Origin: Myxococcales bacterium
GTDB taxonomy: Bacteria; Myxococcota; UBA727; VGSZ01
Assembly: GCA_023248635.1 (NCBI GenBank)
Contig: JAHFED010000054.1
Span: 1-43,946, forward strand
Length of the DNA: 43,946 bases
Reading direction: 5' to 3'
Part shown: positions 1 through 43,946 of the stretch, piece after piece
Layout of the letters: each line of letters opens with the position of its first letter
Numbering within the stretch: position 1 is the stretch's first letter
Notes under the pieces: generated by a model
Databases searched by the model: none
What the model was told of the DNA's origin: nothing
Seen by the model: only the letters and a program-made list of their open reading frames with translations
Made by a program: the position numbers and the translations under genes

Positions 1-116
1 CCCCGCGTCCGGCTCCGCCGGCGCGGGGGGAGGTCTGCACCAGACCTCCCAGAAGAGCATCCCCGACGGAGCTGAACGAGACCGCTCCGCGGTCGAAGTT
101 CAGCGAGATCGGGGAT
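1..116 (-). repeat. Interspersed ~210-bp hairpin repeat, copy A (cut by window start)
   Basis: Reverse-complement copy of the element also found at 15408, 20711, 42917 and 43818. Read on the minus strand it starts ATCCCCGATCTCG and holds three nested stem-loops: GACCGC/GCGGTC around GGA, GGGAGGTCTG/CAGACCTCCC around GTG, and CCGGC/GCCGG around GGA. The final A of the TGA stop of the upstream minus-strand gene (116-118) is the first base of the repeat. The far half is missing because the window begins here. Confidence 0.9.
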
Positions 117-3083: not shown

Positions 3084-5768
3084 ATGCGTACCTGGCCCGG
3101 ACTCCTGGTGCTCGCGGCCTCCGCGTCGCTCGCGGGTTGCCGAGGTTGCCTGGAGCCTGCCGTGCGAGCGGTGGCCGCCGAAGGGGAAGGTGAGGATGTC
3201 GACAGCGACAACGACGGGATTCCCGACGCCATCGAGGACAGCGACAGCGACGGCTTCGTCGACGCCGACGAGACCGACCCCCTCGACCCCGACTCCGACG
3301 ACGATGGCATCGAAGACGGCGTCGAGGATCGCGATCAGGATGGTGTCGTCGACGCCGACGAAAGCGATCCGCGCGATCCCGACAGCGACGACGACGGCCT
3401 CGAAGATGGCGTGGAAGACAGCGACCACGACGGCGTCGTCGACCTCGAGGAGACGGATCCGCTGAAGCCCGACAGCGACGGCGACGGCGTTTACGACGGC
3501 ATCGAGGACAAAGACCGCGACGGCGACGTCGACCCCGATGAGTCGGACCCAAACGATGCCGATAGCGACGACGACGGCACCCCCGATGGCGAGGAGAAGC
3601 TCGACTGCGGGGCCGCGAGGGTCGCGTCCCTGGGCGCCAACAACGGCGACACCACTGGCGGCGCTGCGATCCGTGACGACGTCTTCGACGCCGCCTCGGG
3701 TTTGCCCTGCGTGTCGCTCGCCGCGCCGGTGGAGCTGTGGACCTACACCCCCACGCAGCCAGGTACGGTGATGTTCACCGTCGCTCCCACCAACGGCGAC
3801 CGTCTCGGGGTGCTGATCCGTGGCCCCGACTGCAACACGGACATCAACCAGACCTGCACCTATGACGACAGCGAGGACGATCAGGGCAGCATCGCGGTCG
3901 GCGCGGAGCCAGGGGAGGCGATCAGCCTCATCATCGGCGGCTTGGAGAGCGTCGACGTCGGCGCCTACGTGCTCACGGTGGAAGAGTCCTCGCGCACCTG
4001 CGCCAGTGGAAGGCCGATGTCCTTCACCCAGGACACGGCGACGGCCATCACCGACAGCGGGACGGCCGGCAGCACCATCTCCGTCGGCAAGGTCGCCACC
4101 GTGAACGACGTCGGAGCCACCCTCAACTCCCTGACCTACAGCTCCACCGGGGATCTGACGGTGAGCCTTCTCTCCCCCGCCGGCACGGTGGTGAACCTGT
4201 CCAGCGGCAACGGCGATGGCGGAGACAACATGCTCGCCACGGAATTCAGCGACGCCTGCCTCGAGCCCTTCGCCTCGCAGGGGGAGGGCGATGCACCGTT
4301 CACTGGGTGCTTCACACCGGAAACGCCCTTGGCGGCCTTGGCCGGCGAAGAGGCCAACGGCGACTGGACCCTGGGCGTGGACGGCGCCGCCGCCGCCGGC
4401 TCCCTCGACAGCTGGACCCTCGACCTTTGCGTCGCGAACGAGCGACGGCTCGCGGGCTGTGGCTTCGGCGTCCCCGCCTGCTCCGAGGAAGGGCAATGCC
4501 AGGCCTACGCCAACCAGAACCTGCCTGTCGGAACCGGAGGCAGCTGCGTGACGGGCTGTTGTGTGTTCGCCGCCGAGGGCGAGGGCGAAGGTGAGGGTGG
4601 AGGCGAAGGCGAGGGAGGCGAAGGCGAGGGGGGAGGCGAAGGCGAGGGCGGCGGCGAAGGCGAGGGTGGAGGCGAAGGCGAGGGCGGCGGCGAAGGCGAG
4701 GGTGGAGGCGAAGGCGAAGGCGAAAGCGTGGGCTGCCAGGACGGCGTCGAAGTGGTCGACGGCGAGGAAACGGGCTCCTTCAATTCCCTTGCCCTAGATG
4801 CGGAGGGGAGGCTGCACGTCGCCTACGCGGATGCGTCGGCGCCCCTGGGCTACGCGCGCCAGGGTGTCGACGGGAGGTGGACCCTGGAGACGGTGGACGG
4901 GGCGAGCGTCAATGGGCACCCAGCGATCGCCGTTGGTGGGGGGGCCAGCCCAGAGGTGCACGTGGTCTATCCCGGCCCGGGCGGCGGTCTCGCCCATCGG
5001 GTGCGCAACCCGGTGACCGGGATCTGGACGGAGCCCGAGGGCGCTCTACCAGAGGTCTCGCTGACCCGGGTGCGCGCCCTGGCGATCGACAACGACGGCG
5101 GCTTGCATCTGCTCTACACCGACTCGGAGGTCGACGTCGGCATCGTGTCGACCTACGCGTTCAAGCCGCGCGGAGGCGACTGGGCCAGCAGCGAGCGGGT
5201 GGCGGTGTTGGCGCAACCCGGCGTGTTCTACACGGGCGAAGAGTCGATGGCCCTCGACCGCTTCGGCGCGCCCCACGTCGCCTACCAGGACGACCTCGAC
5301 GGCAACCTCGACGATTTGGGCTACGCCTTCCGCGACGACGGCATCTGGATCAGAGAGATCGTGGCCAGCGAGGGGTCCGTCGGTGGCCACAACGCGATCG
5401 CCGTGGATCAAGGCGGCACAGTGCACATCGCCTATACCGACGACGCGGTCTTCGGTCTTCGGCACGCGCGCCTCAACCCCGACTCTGCTGTTTGGATCAC
5501 GCTGCCGCTGGACAGCGCCGGCAACCCCGACGTGGTGGCGCTGACGGTGGGCGCGAACAACGTCGTCCGGGCGGCGTATCGCACCCGGGAATTCTGCCGT
5601 CTGCGCACCGCGACGTTCACCGGCACGGCTTGGGCCCCCGAGCTGGTCGACGATGACCACTGTGCCGTGGGCGAGGTCTCCGTCGTCGTCGACGCCGCCT
5701 TTGCGGCCCACATCGTGTTCCACGGTTTGAATGGCGGCGACCTGCTGCATGCGACGGTCTGCCCCTGA
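3084..5768 (+). CDS. Lipoprotein with TSP3 calcium-binding repeats, P-domain, Gly-Glu linker and beta-propeller
   Basis: Predicted 894-residue lipoprotein. The start is chosen at MRTWPG, six bases after GGAGG, giving a signal peptide with a good lipobox (SLAGC). Directly after it come about five thrombospondin type-3-like repeats (DSDxDGxxDxxE pattern), which in known families bind calcium. A PPC-like beta-sandwich and a proprotein-convertase P-domain-like segment follow (TSLTY-type strand, NGDWTL, GSLDSWTLDLC). A Cys-rich patch leads into a roughly 50-residue (GEGE/GGGEGE) stretch, then a C-terminal beta-propeller with repeated LHVAY/VHIAYTD strands resembling BNR/Kelch-like repeats. No catalytic residues are recognised, so an adhesive or scaffolding surface role is inferred. 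The TGA stop lies in the first bases of a short hairpin repeat. Confidence 0.85.
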   Translation: MRTWPGLLVLAASASLAGCRGCLEPAVRAVAAEGEGEDVDSDNDGIPDAIEDSDSDGFVDADETDPLDPDSDDDGIEDGVEDRDQDGVVDADESDPRDPDSDDDGLEDGVEDSDHDGVVDLEETDPLKPDSDGDGVYDGIEDKDRDGDVDPDESDPNDADSDDDGTPDGEEKLDCGAARVASLGANNGDTTGGAAIRDDVFDAASGLPCVSLAAPVELWTYTPTQPGTVMFTVAPTNGDRLGVLIRGPDCNTDINQTCTYDDSEDDQGSIAVGAEPGEAISLIIGGLESVDVGAYVLTVEESSRTCASGRPMSFTQDTATAITDSGTAGSTISVGKVATVNDVGATLNSLTYSSTGDLTVSLLSPAGTVVNLSSGNGDGGDNMLATEFSDACLEPFASQGEGDAPFTGCFTPETPLAALAGEEANGDWTLGVDGAAAAGSLDSWTLDLCVANERRLAGCGFGVPACSEEGQCQAYANQNLPVGTGGSCVTGCCVFAAEGEGEGEGGGEGEGGEGEGGGEGEGGGEGEGGGEGEGGGEGEGGGEGEGESVGCQDGVEVVDGEETGSFNSLALDAEGRLHVAYADASAPLGYARQGVDGRWTLETVDGASVNGHPAIAVGGGASPEVHVVYPGPGGGLAHRVRNPVTGIWTEPEGALPEVSLTRVRALAIDNDGGLHLLYTDSEVDVGIVSTYAFKPRGGDWASSERVAVLAQPGVFYTGEESMALDRFGAPHVAYQDDLDGNLDDLGYAFRDDGIWIREIVASEGSVGGHNAIAVDQGGTVHIAYTDDAVFGLRHARLNPDSAVWITLPLDSAGNPDVVALTVGANNVVRAAYRTREFCRLRTATFTGTAWAPELVDDDHCAVGEVSVVVDAAFAAHIVFHGLNGGDLLHATVCP
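4573..4728 (+). repeat. In-gene low-complexity tract encoding (Gly-Glu)n
   Basis: Imperfect hexa/dodecanucleotide repeats of the GGCGAGGGCGAA type encode the Gly-Glu linker of the TSP3 lipoprotein. Similar tracts lie in two other lipoproteins of the window (32229-32485 and 35722-35988). The tract length is likely to vary by slippage. Confidence 0.85.
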
Positions 5769-5780
5769 ACGTCAAAACTC

Positions 5781-5850
5781 CAAGACGCGCCAGCGTCTTG
5801 AACATCCAAACTTCAAGACGCGCCAGCGTCTTGAACATCCAAACTTCAAG
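5781..5850. repeat. 33-bp-period GCCA-loop hairpin repeat, two perfect units
   Basis: Two perfect 20-base hairpins, stem CAAGACGC/GCGTCTTG and loop GCCA, lie at 5781-5800 and 5814-5833. Each is followed by the spacer AACATCCAAACTT. The stop codon of the upstream gene (5766-5768) occupies the TGA of a degenerate TTGAAC spacer. A third imperfect unit with the loop in reverse (TGGC) lies at 5961-5980. The array sits between the 3' ends of two convergent genes, so it may act as a bidirectional terminator, but there is no T-tract. Confidence 0.85.
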
Positions 5851-5960
5851 CTCGACCCGAGGGCAAGGGGGTGGGAGGGGCAGCAGCGACGTGCGCACCA
5901 CCCTTCTCTGTGACCCCGCTTCCGCCTCAGGCGAAGCGACCGCTTGCAGCATCGGAACTT

Positions 5961-10978: not shown

Positions 10979-11090
10979 GGGAGGCGCCCGCGCCTTGAAC
11001 CATCGCGCTTCAAGACGCGCCAGCGTCTTGAACAACCAAACCTCAAGATGGGCCGGCGTCCGAACGATCAGCACTTCACGACGCGGGCGC
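10979..11090. repeat. Degenerate 33-bp-period hairpin array after the FGE gene
   Basis: One perfect unit lies at 11011-11030 (CAAGACGC, GCCA loop, GCGTCTTG). Diverged units are at 10980-10995 (AGGCGC/GCGCCT), 11044-11063 (GCCG loop) and about 11077. The unit starts at 11011, 11044 and 11077 keep the 33-base period seen at 5781. The array begins 2-3 bases beyond the TGA stop of the FGE gene. Confidence 0.75.
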
Positions 11091-14496: not shown

Positions 14497-15408
14497 ATGT
14501 TGAAGAAGCGACTGGGCGAGCTCCTGATAGAGCGCAACCTCATCGATGCAGACCAGCTGAACGCTGCGCTGGCCCACCAACGACAGTGGGGCATGCGCCT
14601 GGGAACGGCCTTGGTGGCCAAGGGCTTCGTCGCCGAAGGAACCCTCACCCGCGTGCTCTCGGAGTCGCTGGGCTTTCCCATGGTCGATCTGGCCAAGGTC
14701 GTCGTCGATCAAAAGGCCCTGGCCCTCGTACCCCGCCGCACCTGCGAGGCCCACGCCGTGCTGCCACTGGCCGTCAAGGAGCAAGAGAAGGGGCGCAAGG
14801 TCTTGCTGCTGGCCATGGCCGATCCGCTCAACGCCGCCGTCGTCGACGAGATCAGCTTCACCACCGACAGCATCGTCAAGCCCGCCATCGCGCAGATTTC
14901 CTCGCTCGAGCAAGCAGTTCGCCGCTACTACCTGGGGCAACGCGTCGACATCGCACCACTGAACTTTGACTCCAAGGGTGCGCCCTCCTTCCTCTCTGAT
15001 GGCGACGAGCCGATGACCATCACGGGCCGCGGAGCCGACGGCGATCGCGTCGTCGTCGGGCGGGAGGCCGTCGGCGCTGTCGAAGCCCGGGGCATCGATC
15101 TCGGACCCCCCGAAGACACCGAGCCATCGCTGGCCCTGGCTCCGCACCCCCTGCCCATCGATTTTCTCGGGCAGGGGACCGGCGTCTTCGCCATGCCGGC
15201 AAGCAGCGCGCCCCTGGAGATCGTGCGCGCCACCCACACCGCCGAAGGAGCTGCCGTCGACGACCTGCTCTCGATCTCCCGCGCCGCCGACACCGAGCAA
15301 ATCGAAGCGCTGGAGAAGAAATTCTGGGCGCTCATTCGGGTGCTCGCGCGCCGCGGCCTGGTCACCAAAGAGGAATTTCTCGCCGAGCTTCGCGCCGGCG
15401 ACGACTGA
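14497..15408 (+). CDS. Stand-alone MshEN (GspE/PilB N-terminal) domain protein
   Basis: A 303-residue protein with AGGAG upstream of the ATG. Residues 1-155 match the N-terminal domain of type II secretion/type IV pilus ATPases (LGELLIERNLIDADQLNAAL, RLGTALVAKGFV, LLLAMADPLNAAVVDEI, SLEQAVRRYY). In MshE/PilB relatives this domain can bind cyclic di-GMP. No Walker A/B ATPase domain follows; the remaining 150 residues are acidic and of low complexity, ending in a short helix (FWALIRVLARRGLVTKEEFLAEL). It probably acts as a regulator or receptor rather than a motor. It follows the cNMP-domain transporter in the same direction. Its stop codon's last base begins repeat copy B. Confidence 0.82.
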   Translation: MLKKRLGELLIERNLIDADQLNAALAHQRQWGMRLGTALVAKGFVAEGTLTRVLSESLGFPMVDLAKVVVDQKALALVPRRTCEAHAVLPLAVKEQEKGRKVLLLAMADPLNAAVVDEISFTTDSIVKPAIAQISSLEQAVRRYYLGQRVDIAPLNFDSKGAPSFLSDGDEPMTITGRGADGDRVVVGREAVGAVEARGIDLGPPEDTEPSLALAPHPLPIDFLGQGTGVFAMPASSAPLEIVRATHTAEGAAVDDLLSISRAADTEQIEALEKKFWALIRVLARRGLVTKEEFLAELRAGDD

Positions 15409-15615
15409 TCCCCGATCTCGCTGAACTTCGACCGCGGAGCGGTCTCGTTCATCGCCGTCGGGGATGCTCTTCTGGGAGGTCTGGTGCAGACCTCCCCCCG
15501 CGCCGGCGGAGCCGGACGCGGGGCCCAACTCCGCGTTCCGCGGGCGCGCTTCACGCGCATCATCCCCCGTCTTTCCCATCTCGGAACGCGGTCGAACATC
15601 AAGCGGACGCGGGAT
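15408..15615 (+). repeat. Interspersed ~210-bp hairpin repeat, copy B
   Basis: Complete 208-base copy, bounded by ATCCC at the start and GGGAT at the end. It carries the GACCGC/GCGGTC, GGGAGGTCTG/CAGACCTCCC and CCGGC/GCCGG hairpins, then CCGCGTTCC paired at distance with GGAACGCGG. It lacks six bases (CCCACC-type) present in copies C and D. The first A is the last base of the preceding TGA (15406-15408). Confidence 0.92.
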
Positions 15616-15692
15616 GACAAAAAACGCAGGGCTACTTGAAGCGGTTGGGCTCAGAGATCGTAAACGCGCACCGGTCCCCCGCCATTGATGAT

Positions 15693-20710: not shown

Positions 20711-20924
20711 ATCCCGCGTCCGATTGATGTTCGACCACGTTCTGAGATGGGAAAGACGCGGGATGATGCGCGTGGAGCGCGCACGCGGAACGCGGAGTTG
20801 GTGGGGGGCCCCGCGTCCGGCTCCGCCGGCGCGGGGGGAGGTCTGCACCAGACCTCCCAGAAGAGCATCCCCGACGGCTCTGAACGAGACCGCTCCGCGG
20901 TCGAAGTTCAGAGAGATCGGGGAT
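20711..20924 (-). repeat. Interspersed ~210-bp hairpin repeat, copy C
   Basis: Complete 214-base copy in reverse orientation, with the same hairpins as copy B. Its outer arm next to TGAAC reads CTC, pairing with GAG after GTTCA, unlike other copies. It is the only copy not at the 3' end of a gene: on its strand no gene ends to its right, and the neighbouring gene on each side starts here. Confidence 0.9.
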
Positions 20925-29772: not shown

Positions 29773-30127
29773 GCCGTCGACGATCTACGACAGGTCCCGG
29801 CGCGACGGAAGCACGCGTTTGGGCCGTGCCAACGGCCCAAACCATCGGCACTTTGAGCCGTGCCAACGGCGCAAAGCCGGAAGCACTTTGAGCCGTGCCA
29901 ACGGCGCAAAGCAGGAAGCACTTTGAGCCGTGCCAACGGCGCAAAGCAGGAAGCACTTTGAGCCGTGCCAACGGCGCAAAGCAGGAAGCACTTTGAGCCG
30001 TGCCAACGCGCAAAGCAGGAAGCACGTTGAGGCGGGGCCCGCGACGCAAAACGATTCAGTACGTTGCTCGCAAAGCTCAGGATCTGCCAACGAGCAGAGT
30101 TGTGCTGCGGCGAGGTACACCCAGCGG
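29773..30127. other. Divergent intergenic region filled by a 35-bp hairpin array
   Basis: The roughly 355 bases between the YqiJ-like start (minus) and the L-domain protein start (plus) are dominated by the tandem hairpin array at 29818-30045. GAGG at 30112-30115 may serve as ribosome-binding site for the plus-strand gene. Promoter boxes were not recognised. Confidence 0.55.
29818..30045 (+). repeat. Tandem 35-bp GCCA-loop hairpin array, six units plus a remnant
   Basis: Hairpins start at 29818, 29852, 29887, 29922, 29957 and 29992. The first has a perfect stem (TTTGGGCCGT/ACGGCCCAAA). The next five read TTTGAGCCGT/ACGGCGCAAA with one A-G mismatch, and the last has lost one G. All loops are GCCA. 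The spacer is GCAGGAAGCAC. A decayed seventh unit ends near 30045. The same unit appears reverse-complemented at 38570. Confidence 0.92.
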
Positions 30128-38569: not shown

Positions 38570-38733
38570 TTTGAGCCCTTGGCCCGGCTCAAAGGGCTTC
38601 CTGCTTTGCGCCGTTGGCACGGCGCAAAGGGCTTCCTGCTTTGCGCCGTTGGCACGGCGCAAAGGGCTTCCTGCTTTGCGCCGTTGGCACGGCGCAAAGG
38701 GCCTCCTGCTTTGCGCCGTTGGCACGGCGCAAA
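38570..38733 (-). repeat. Tandem 35-bp GCCA-loop hairpin array, five units (reverse orientation)
   Basis: Hairpins start at 38570, 38605, 38640, 38675 and 38710. The last four have a perfect 10-bp stem (TTTGCGCCGT/ACGGCGCAAA) around TGGC on the plus strand (GCCA on the minus strand). The first differs but is still paired at its outer end (TTTGAGCC/GGCTCAAA). Spacers read GGGCTTCCTGC. The array fills most of the divergent gap between the kinase (38468) and the HugZ-like gene (38753). Confidence 0.92.
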
Positions 38734-38752
38734 TGCTGATAACCACTGAGGC

Positions 38753-42916: not shown

Positions 42917-43130
42917 ATCCCCGACGGCGATGAACTTCGACCGCGGAGCGGTCTCGTTCATCGCCGTCGGGCATGCTCTTCTGGGAGGTCTGGTGCAGAC
43001 CTCCCCCCGCGCCGGCGGAGCCGGACGCGGGGCCCCCCACCAACTCCGCGTTCCGCGGGCGCGCTTCACGCGCATCATCCCGCGTCTTTCCCATCTCGGA
43101 ACGCGGTCGAACATCAAGCGGACGCGGGAT
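42917..43130 (+). repeat. Interspersed ~210-bp hairpin repeat, copy D
   Basis: Complete 214-base copy. Its first hairpin is nearly a perfect palindrome: GACGGCGATGAAC on the left pairs with GTTCATCGCCGTC on the right, whereas the other copies are only partly paired there. It lies 23 bases after the DUF1003 gene's stop. The string CGCGGGATGA just before it (42898-42907) looks like the tail of a further copy. Confidence 0.92.
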
Positions 43131-43173: not shown

Positions 43174-43818
43174 ATGGATCCTCAGCGCACCAAGCCCAAG
43201 CTCCGCGGGCACTCGCACCAGGCCGCATTTTTTGCGGCCTTGGGAGCGGGCGTGGTCTTGATCGCCGCTGCCCCGACGCCGCGGACGACGCTGGCCGCCG
43301 CCGTCTACGTCGTCACCCTGGTCTTGCTCTTTGGCATCAGCGCCCTGTACCACCGGCCCTATTGGCCAGCCCGCCCGCGCGAGGTCTTGGCCCGCCTCGA
43401 CCACGCGATGATCTTCATCTTCATCGCCGGTAGCTACACGCCCTTCTGCTTGCTTGGGCTCTCGCCAGAGACCGGGAAGTTCGTCCTCGTCACCATGTGG
43501 ATCACGGCCCTGGTGCTGGCGTCCACCAAAGCAGTGGGGCTGCGCATGCCGCGCTGGCTGATGGCGAGCAGCTATGTCGCCATGGGGTGGTTTGCGGCGT
43601 GGTCGATGCCCGAAGCGGCCACCATCATCGGCGTCGCTGGCACCGTGCTCCTCTTCGTCGGCGGCGTGCTCTATACGATTGGTGCCGTCATCTTCTGGCG
43701 CAAAGCCCCCAACCCGTTGCCGGGATTGTTCGGCTATCATGAGGTTTTTCACCTGCTCGTGATTGCCGCCGGGATCGCGCATTTCATTGCAGTAGCCCGC
43801 TTGGTCTTCGCGGGCTAA
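43174..43818 (+). CDS. Hemolysin-III / PAQR family membrane protein
   Basis: A 214-residue protein with seven predicted hydrophobic helices and the family residues: SALYHRPYW (Ser, His), ARLDHAMIFIFIAGSYTP (Asp, His) and GYHEVFHLLVIAAGIAHF (two His near the end). In adiponectin-receptor relatives these His/Asp bind zinc and support lipid-amide hydrolysis; bacterial members (YqfA, Hly-III) are linked to membrane fluidity, and haemolysis is not a general property. It is flanked by repeat copies D and E in the same orientation. Its TAA stop is the start of copy E. Start ATG 43174 follows a CAGG. Confidence 0.88.
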   Translation: MDPQRTKPKLRGHSHQAAFFAALGAGVVLIAAAPTPRTTLAAAVYVVTLVLLFGISALYHRPYWPARPREVLARLDHAMIFIFIAGSYTPFCLLGLSPETGKFVLVTMWITALVLASTKAVGLRMPRWLMASSYVAMGWFAAWSMPEAATIIGVAGTVLLFVGGVLYTIGAVIFWRKAPNPLPGLFGYHEVFHLLVIAAGIAHFIAVARLVFAG

Positions 43819-43946
43819 TCCCCGATCTCGCTGAACTTCGACCGCGGAGCGGTCTCGTTCATCTCCGTCGGGGATGCTCCTCTGGGAGGTCTGGTGCAGA
43901 CCTCCCCCCGCGCCGGCGGAGCCGGACGCGGGGCCCCCCACCAACT
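43818..43946 (+). repeat. Interspersed ~210-bp hairpin repeat, copy E (cut by window end)
   Basis: First 129 bases of the element, starting at the last A of the TAA stop of the PAQR gene (43816-43818). The three main hairpins are present. The outer arms of the first are less paired than in A, C and D. Confidence 0.92.

Follow-up and report, generated by a model that had tools for sequence, protein, structure and literature searches.

The repeat that occurs five times in the window (the whole of contig C93, 43,946 nucleotides long, from a 6.53-Mb assembly in 135 contigs) turned out to be a MITE: its copies are short, non-coding, numerous and similar to one another, carry terminal inverted repeats and are flanked by a target-site duplication. 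It is very probably a non-autonomous, DDE-type element that depends, or depended, on a transposase acting in trans at TNA sites, which would explain the exact register of copies with stop codons. The repeat is a new family of an already known kind, for which the stop-codon register has a neat explanation.

All five copies were found where the initial annotation had placed them, with the lengths and matching ends it described, and its claim that the first base of the element is also the final A of a stop codon was confirmed for copies A, B and E. Copy A (1-116, minus strand), truncated by the contig end, has a TGA duplication that doubles as the stop codon of a minus-strand gene whose end lies at 116. 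Copy B (15408-15615, plus strand, terminal A and T included) is flanked by TGA at 15406-15408 and TGA at 15615-15617, the first of which is the stop of its host gene (14497-15408, plus strand), and in copy E (43818-43946, plus strand, also truncated by the contig end) the TAA duplication serves as the stop codon for the gene at 43174-43818. Copy D (42917-43130, plus strand) does start 23 bases past a stop, and it also lies on a TGA that is duplicated on either side, while copy C (20711-20924, minus strand) has TTA on either side and lies in a divergent intergenic region without a stop codon. Both ends of the contig (positions 1 and 43946) fall within element copies and further contigs likewise terminate in the element, i.e. 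the repeat breaks the assembly.

Genome-wide, the near-palindromic core hairpin pattern gave 144 matches on the forward strand and 143 on the other strand, corresponding to ~144 copies, compared to 0 matches for a reversed control pattern. The copies are about 160-225 bp long, mostly near 214 bp (mostly 200-223 bp), and show 70-100% identity to copy D. Their terminal inverted repeats are imperfect and consist of ATCCC/GGGAT and an internal, inverted TTCGACCGCG. Copy B shows this organisation: a left terminal palindrome of 58 nt (15408-15465, plus strand; ATCCCCGA..TTCGACCGCG..GGGGAT), a core hairpin (15475-15495, plus strand; GGAGGTCTGGTGCAGACCTCC), the CTGAT variant of which is a self-nested insertion site, and a right terminal palindrome of ~54 nt (15562-15615, plus strand; ATCCC..GGTCGAACATC..GACGCGGGAT), with TTCGACCGCG common to both ends and inverted in the right palindrome. 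A second subfamily was seen on contig C76 (locus L133, 11646-11810), where the left palindrome is shorter, the right end is CTTCAACTGGACTTGGGAT, and TCA is duplicated on both sides. Genus relatives gave weak, partial matches to the element only, and neither a plasmid collection searched with the element nor an exact-core scan of a genome contig collection returned a match.

The flanks of the copies define the target. About 100 stretches yielded 77 full copies, 76 of them with usable flanks; this set represents about half of the ~144 copies and leaves out those on contig ends as well as unlisted ones. The left flank reads T-N and then ATCCC, and the right flank GGGAT and then N-A: T was found at position -2 in 75 of 76 copies and A at position +2 in all 76, while the base between T and A was identical on the left and right in 72. 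The clean duplications fall into the classes TGA/TGA (47), TCA/TCA (16), TAA/TAA (6), and TTA/TTA (3), and beyond them C occupies position -3 in 55/76 and G position +3 in 42/76 copies. The element is TCCC...GGGA within a 3-bp TNA duplication, with C|TNA|G as the preferred target. The last A of the stop codon belongs to the duplicated target and a TGA or TAA stop is therefore kept by the insertion, not made by it. Several copies have inserted into another copy's core hairpin, where they split GGTCTGATGCAGACC and duplicate TGA; five uninterrupted occurrences of GGTCTGATGCAGACC were found in the DNA stretches examined. Apparent nesting at CTGG had suggested an insertion that generates a stop, which was rejected as the outer copies carry CTGAT and the A is part of the target.

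The gene in front of copy B offers a separate look at the age of its stop. Orthologues in G001 (67% identity) and G003 (61% identity) both end within a codon of the copy B gene stop, with the C-terminal ends VTKEEFLTELRATE and VTKEEFLAELRQGD, respectively, compared to VTKEEFLAELRAGDD in the copy B gene, and G003 has GGCGACTGAAG where the copy B locus has GACGACTGA followed by the element. Judged by this comparison, the stop is ancestral to within a codon and was not gained through insertion.

Genes were called with a home-made codon-usage caller trained on the same genome, by which 26 of the 76 copies coincide with the stop of a co-oriented gene and 9 with that of a gene running the opposite way; a further 40 are intergenic and 1 falls within a predicted CDS. 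Gene interiors are strongly avoided, given that CDS make up ~66-79% of the motif-weighted sites. Among the copies with a clean duplication, 34 of 72 (47%) lie on a predicted stop. A null model, in which every TNA site was weighted by the target motif and CDS interiors were forbidden, predicted a stop share of 20-32%, or 25-38% with divergent regions also excluded; the observed share was higher, with p-values between 3e-7 and 0.07 depending on the model, and stop use was ~1.5 to 2.3-fold of what motif plus tolerance predict. Most of the stop register consequently follows from the TNA target and tolerance, and most copies can be explained without any attraction to stops that is independent of the target, while the residual excess at stops could reflect further selection or a mild preference.

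The ratio of TGA to TCA, which sets the orientation of the element, was 47:16 overall (p=1e-4) and similar for copies on stops (23:6) and off stops (24:10; Fisher p=0.56), i.e. the orientation is tied to the strand of the target TGA and not to the gene. The initial annotation had described an orientation that always follows the gene; this held for the stop-associated copies of the window (copy C has no stop to follow), but not genome-wide, where the 26 same-orientation copies stand against 9 opposite ones. The proposed homing to gene ends found no support. TNA duplication, strong avoidance of coding sequence, and orientation by the TGA strand give the register.

In the mechanism proposed here, a transposase supplied in trans, now or formerly, would make cuts staggered by 3 bp at TNA, preferably in the context C|TNA|G, and repair would copy TNA to each side of TCCC...GGGA. 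Where the target is TGA or TAA, the left duplicate would hold the stop in frame, rendering the insertion harmless to the gene, while nearly all insertions within genes would be lost. Selection would then be the probable cause of the gene-end distribution, and the element probably relies, or relied, on a DDE mechanism and an IS5/IS1031-like mobilising transposase.

The alternatives differ in what they make of the stops. If the element were a functional 3' end, as the initial annotation had also considered, its hairpins would end or stabilise transcripts and copies would be kept after stops. The stop share of the clean copies above null and the strong hairpins would fit such a role, but the orientation bias is equal off stops, about half of the copies lie off stops, divergent regions included, a T-run terminator was sought at copy B and not found, and an Rfam search with the element gave no match. 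Furthermore, the left 58 nt fold as a hairpin, but most copies are mismatched at four pairs, at varying positions and without clear compensatory change. A structured or functional 3' UTR is thus very improbable. Active targeting of stop codons on top of the TNA motif, e.g. by coupling to transcript ends, could account for the excess over motif-trained nulls (p between 3e-7 and 0.005 among non-coding sites), but this excess weakened to p ~0.07 once the model used the full motif, with every copy in the training set, and left out divergent regions, and selection against insertions in promoters and operon spacers would yield an equal stop excess, which leaves active targeting a decidedly unlikely addition. 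A REP/BIME element, another parallel named at the outset, with a Y1 (RAYT) transposase as its mover, would likewise be short, extragenic, palindromic, and present in >100 copies. However, the clean duplication in 72/76 copies contradicts movement by Y1, as Y1 HUH transposition is not known to duplicate its target, and this element is a ~214-bp composite with distinct ends; a REP/BIME origin is hence extremely improbable. The suggestion of a MITE, by comparison, was borne out by the duplication, the copy number, and the inverted ends.

The TNA-cutting MITE has parallels among known systems. Elements of the IS1031 group (IS5 family) favour 5'-TNA-3' targets and generate 3-bp repeats exclusively, with one documented insertion in TGA (PMC12016507). 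The 3-bp TNA duplication resembles that of this group and its derived MITEs, whereas the ends ATCCC..GGGAT differ from the ISLrh ends GAACCTGTCTAGTATCT and no IS5-type transposase was found in the genome. The eukaryotic, IS5-related NuwaII group of PIF-Harbinger (PHIS) elements shares the preferred C|TNA|G target and the 3-bp duplication (PMC4482050), unlike which the present element is bacterial and non-coding, in a genome with no DDE_Tnp_4 gene. In searches of open-access literature, no title or abstract described TNA elements in stop-codon register, an absence that is weak evidence.

Searches for an IS5/PIF-type transposase with PF13359, PF13340, PF13586, and PF05598 were all without a match in the assembly, and the mobilising enzyme is therefore missing or misidentified. 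PF01609 (DDE_Tnp_1) matched twice, in both cases an IS4/Tn5-like transposase adjoining a left end of the element (typed by NF033590, E=1e-67, and PF14706): an intact-looking ORF on contig C5 (locus L134, 3319-4750) and an 801-bp fragment with 98.9% identity (locus L112, 1431-2231), which meet the element at an identical internal point. A third transposase fragment lies in the element on C76, so that the IS adjoins element sequence at all three of its occurrences in the genome. On C5, positions 1-97 of the element are followed by CTCATGATCCGTCACATCTT and then the 462-aa ORF, the C-terminus of which looks replaced. On C76, the order is left end, CTCATGATTGATCACATCTT, antisense transposase C-terminus, and MITE right end, and a TCA stands at either side of the whole. 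A supposed third IS end on C49 was rejected as a chance match within a gene. Homologues of the transposase occur mainly in Myxococcota records (Polyangiaceae, Sandaracinaceae), suggesting that the genome itself is from Myxococcota; homologues at 35-44% identity gave no usable target-site duplications.

These junctions could mean that the C5 transposase moves the MITE, with the MITE left end serving as a long terminal repeat of the IS and an IS4-type enzyme making 3-bp TNA duplications. The only DDE_Tnp_1 matches of the genome adjoin left ends, the intact 462-aa ORF follows directly on C5, and on C76 the C-terminal end of the transposase runs into an inverted left end. Nevertheless, the IS has its own inverted 20-bp ends, CTCATGATNNNTCACATCTT, directly beside the transposase gene, and C5 and C76 do not have the same side of the transposase facing the left end, so that insertion of the IS into MITEs, at one point of the GC hairpin and in either orientation, is favoured. 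The MITE right end with its TCA duplication that closes the other side on C76 fits an IS that inserted into a MITE and was then deleted, and the transposase carries the YREK signature of IS4-family elements, which duplicate about 10 bp (PMC2266710) whereas the MITE duplicates 3 bp; this also points to insertion into MITEs. Mobilisation by the C5 enzyme is accordingly quite unlikely; that either an IS4/Tn5-type (YREK) transposase makes 3-bp TNA duplications against the ~10-bp rule of its family or a transposon actively favours stops as safe sites beyond the TNA motif is, taken together, an unlikely prospect.

The TNA-cutting MITE suggests a simple, testable rule for mobile repeats in stop register: where the duplicated target is itself the stop codon, the gene is left unharmed. 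This register is to be expected of every element that targets TNA, and gene-end repeats of such a type therefore need not be regulatory. The single copy in CDS, set against the share of motif-weighted sites there, also provides a natural count of selection against genic insertions.

Two other palindromic repeats were observed in the window. Tandem 33-bp repeats (TTCAAGACGCGCCAGCGTCTTGAA) lie near gene ends at 5751-5857 and 10981-11087, with 17 units in the ~400 kb examined and none in CDS, and tandem 35-bp repeats (TTTG[A/C]GCCGTGCCAACGGCGCAAA) lie at 29813-30057 and 38570-38740, with 19 of the 21 units in the DNA examined outside CDS.
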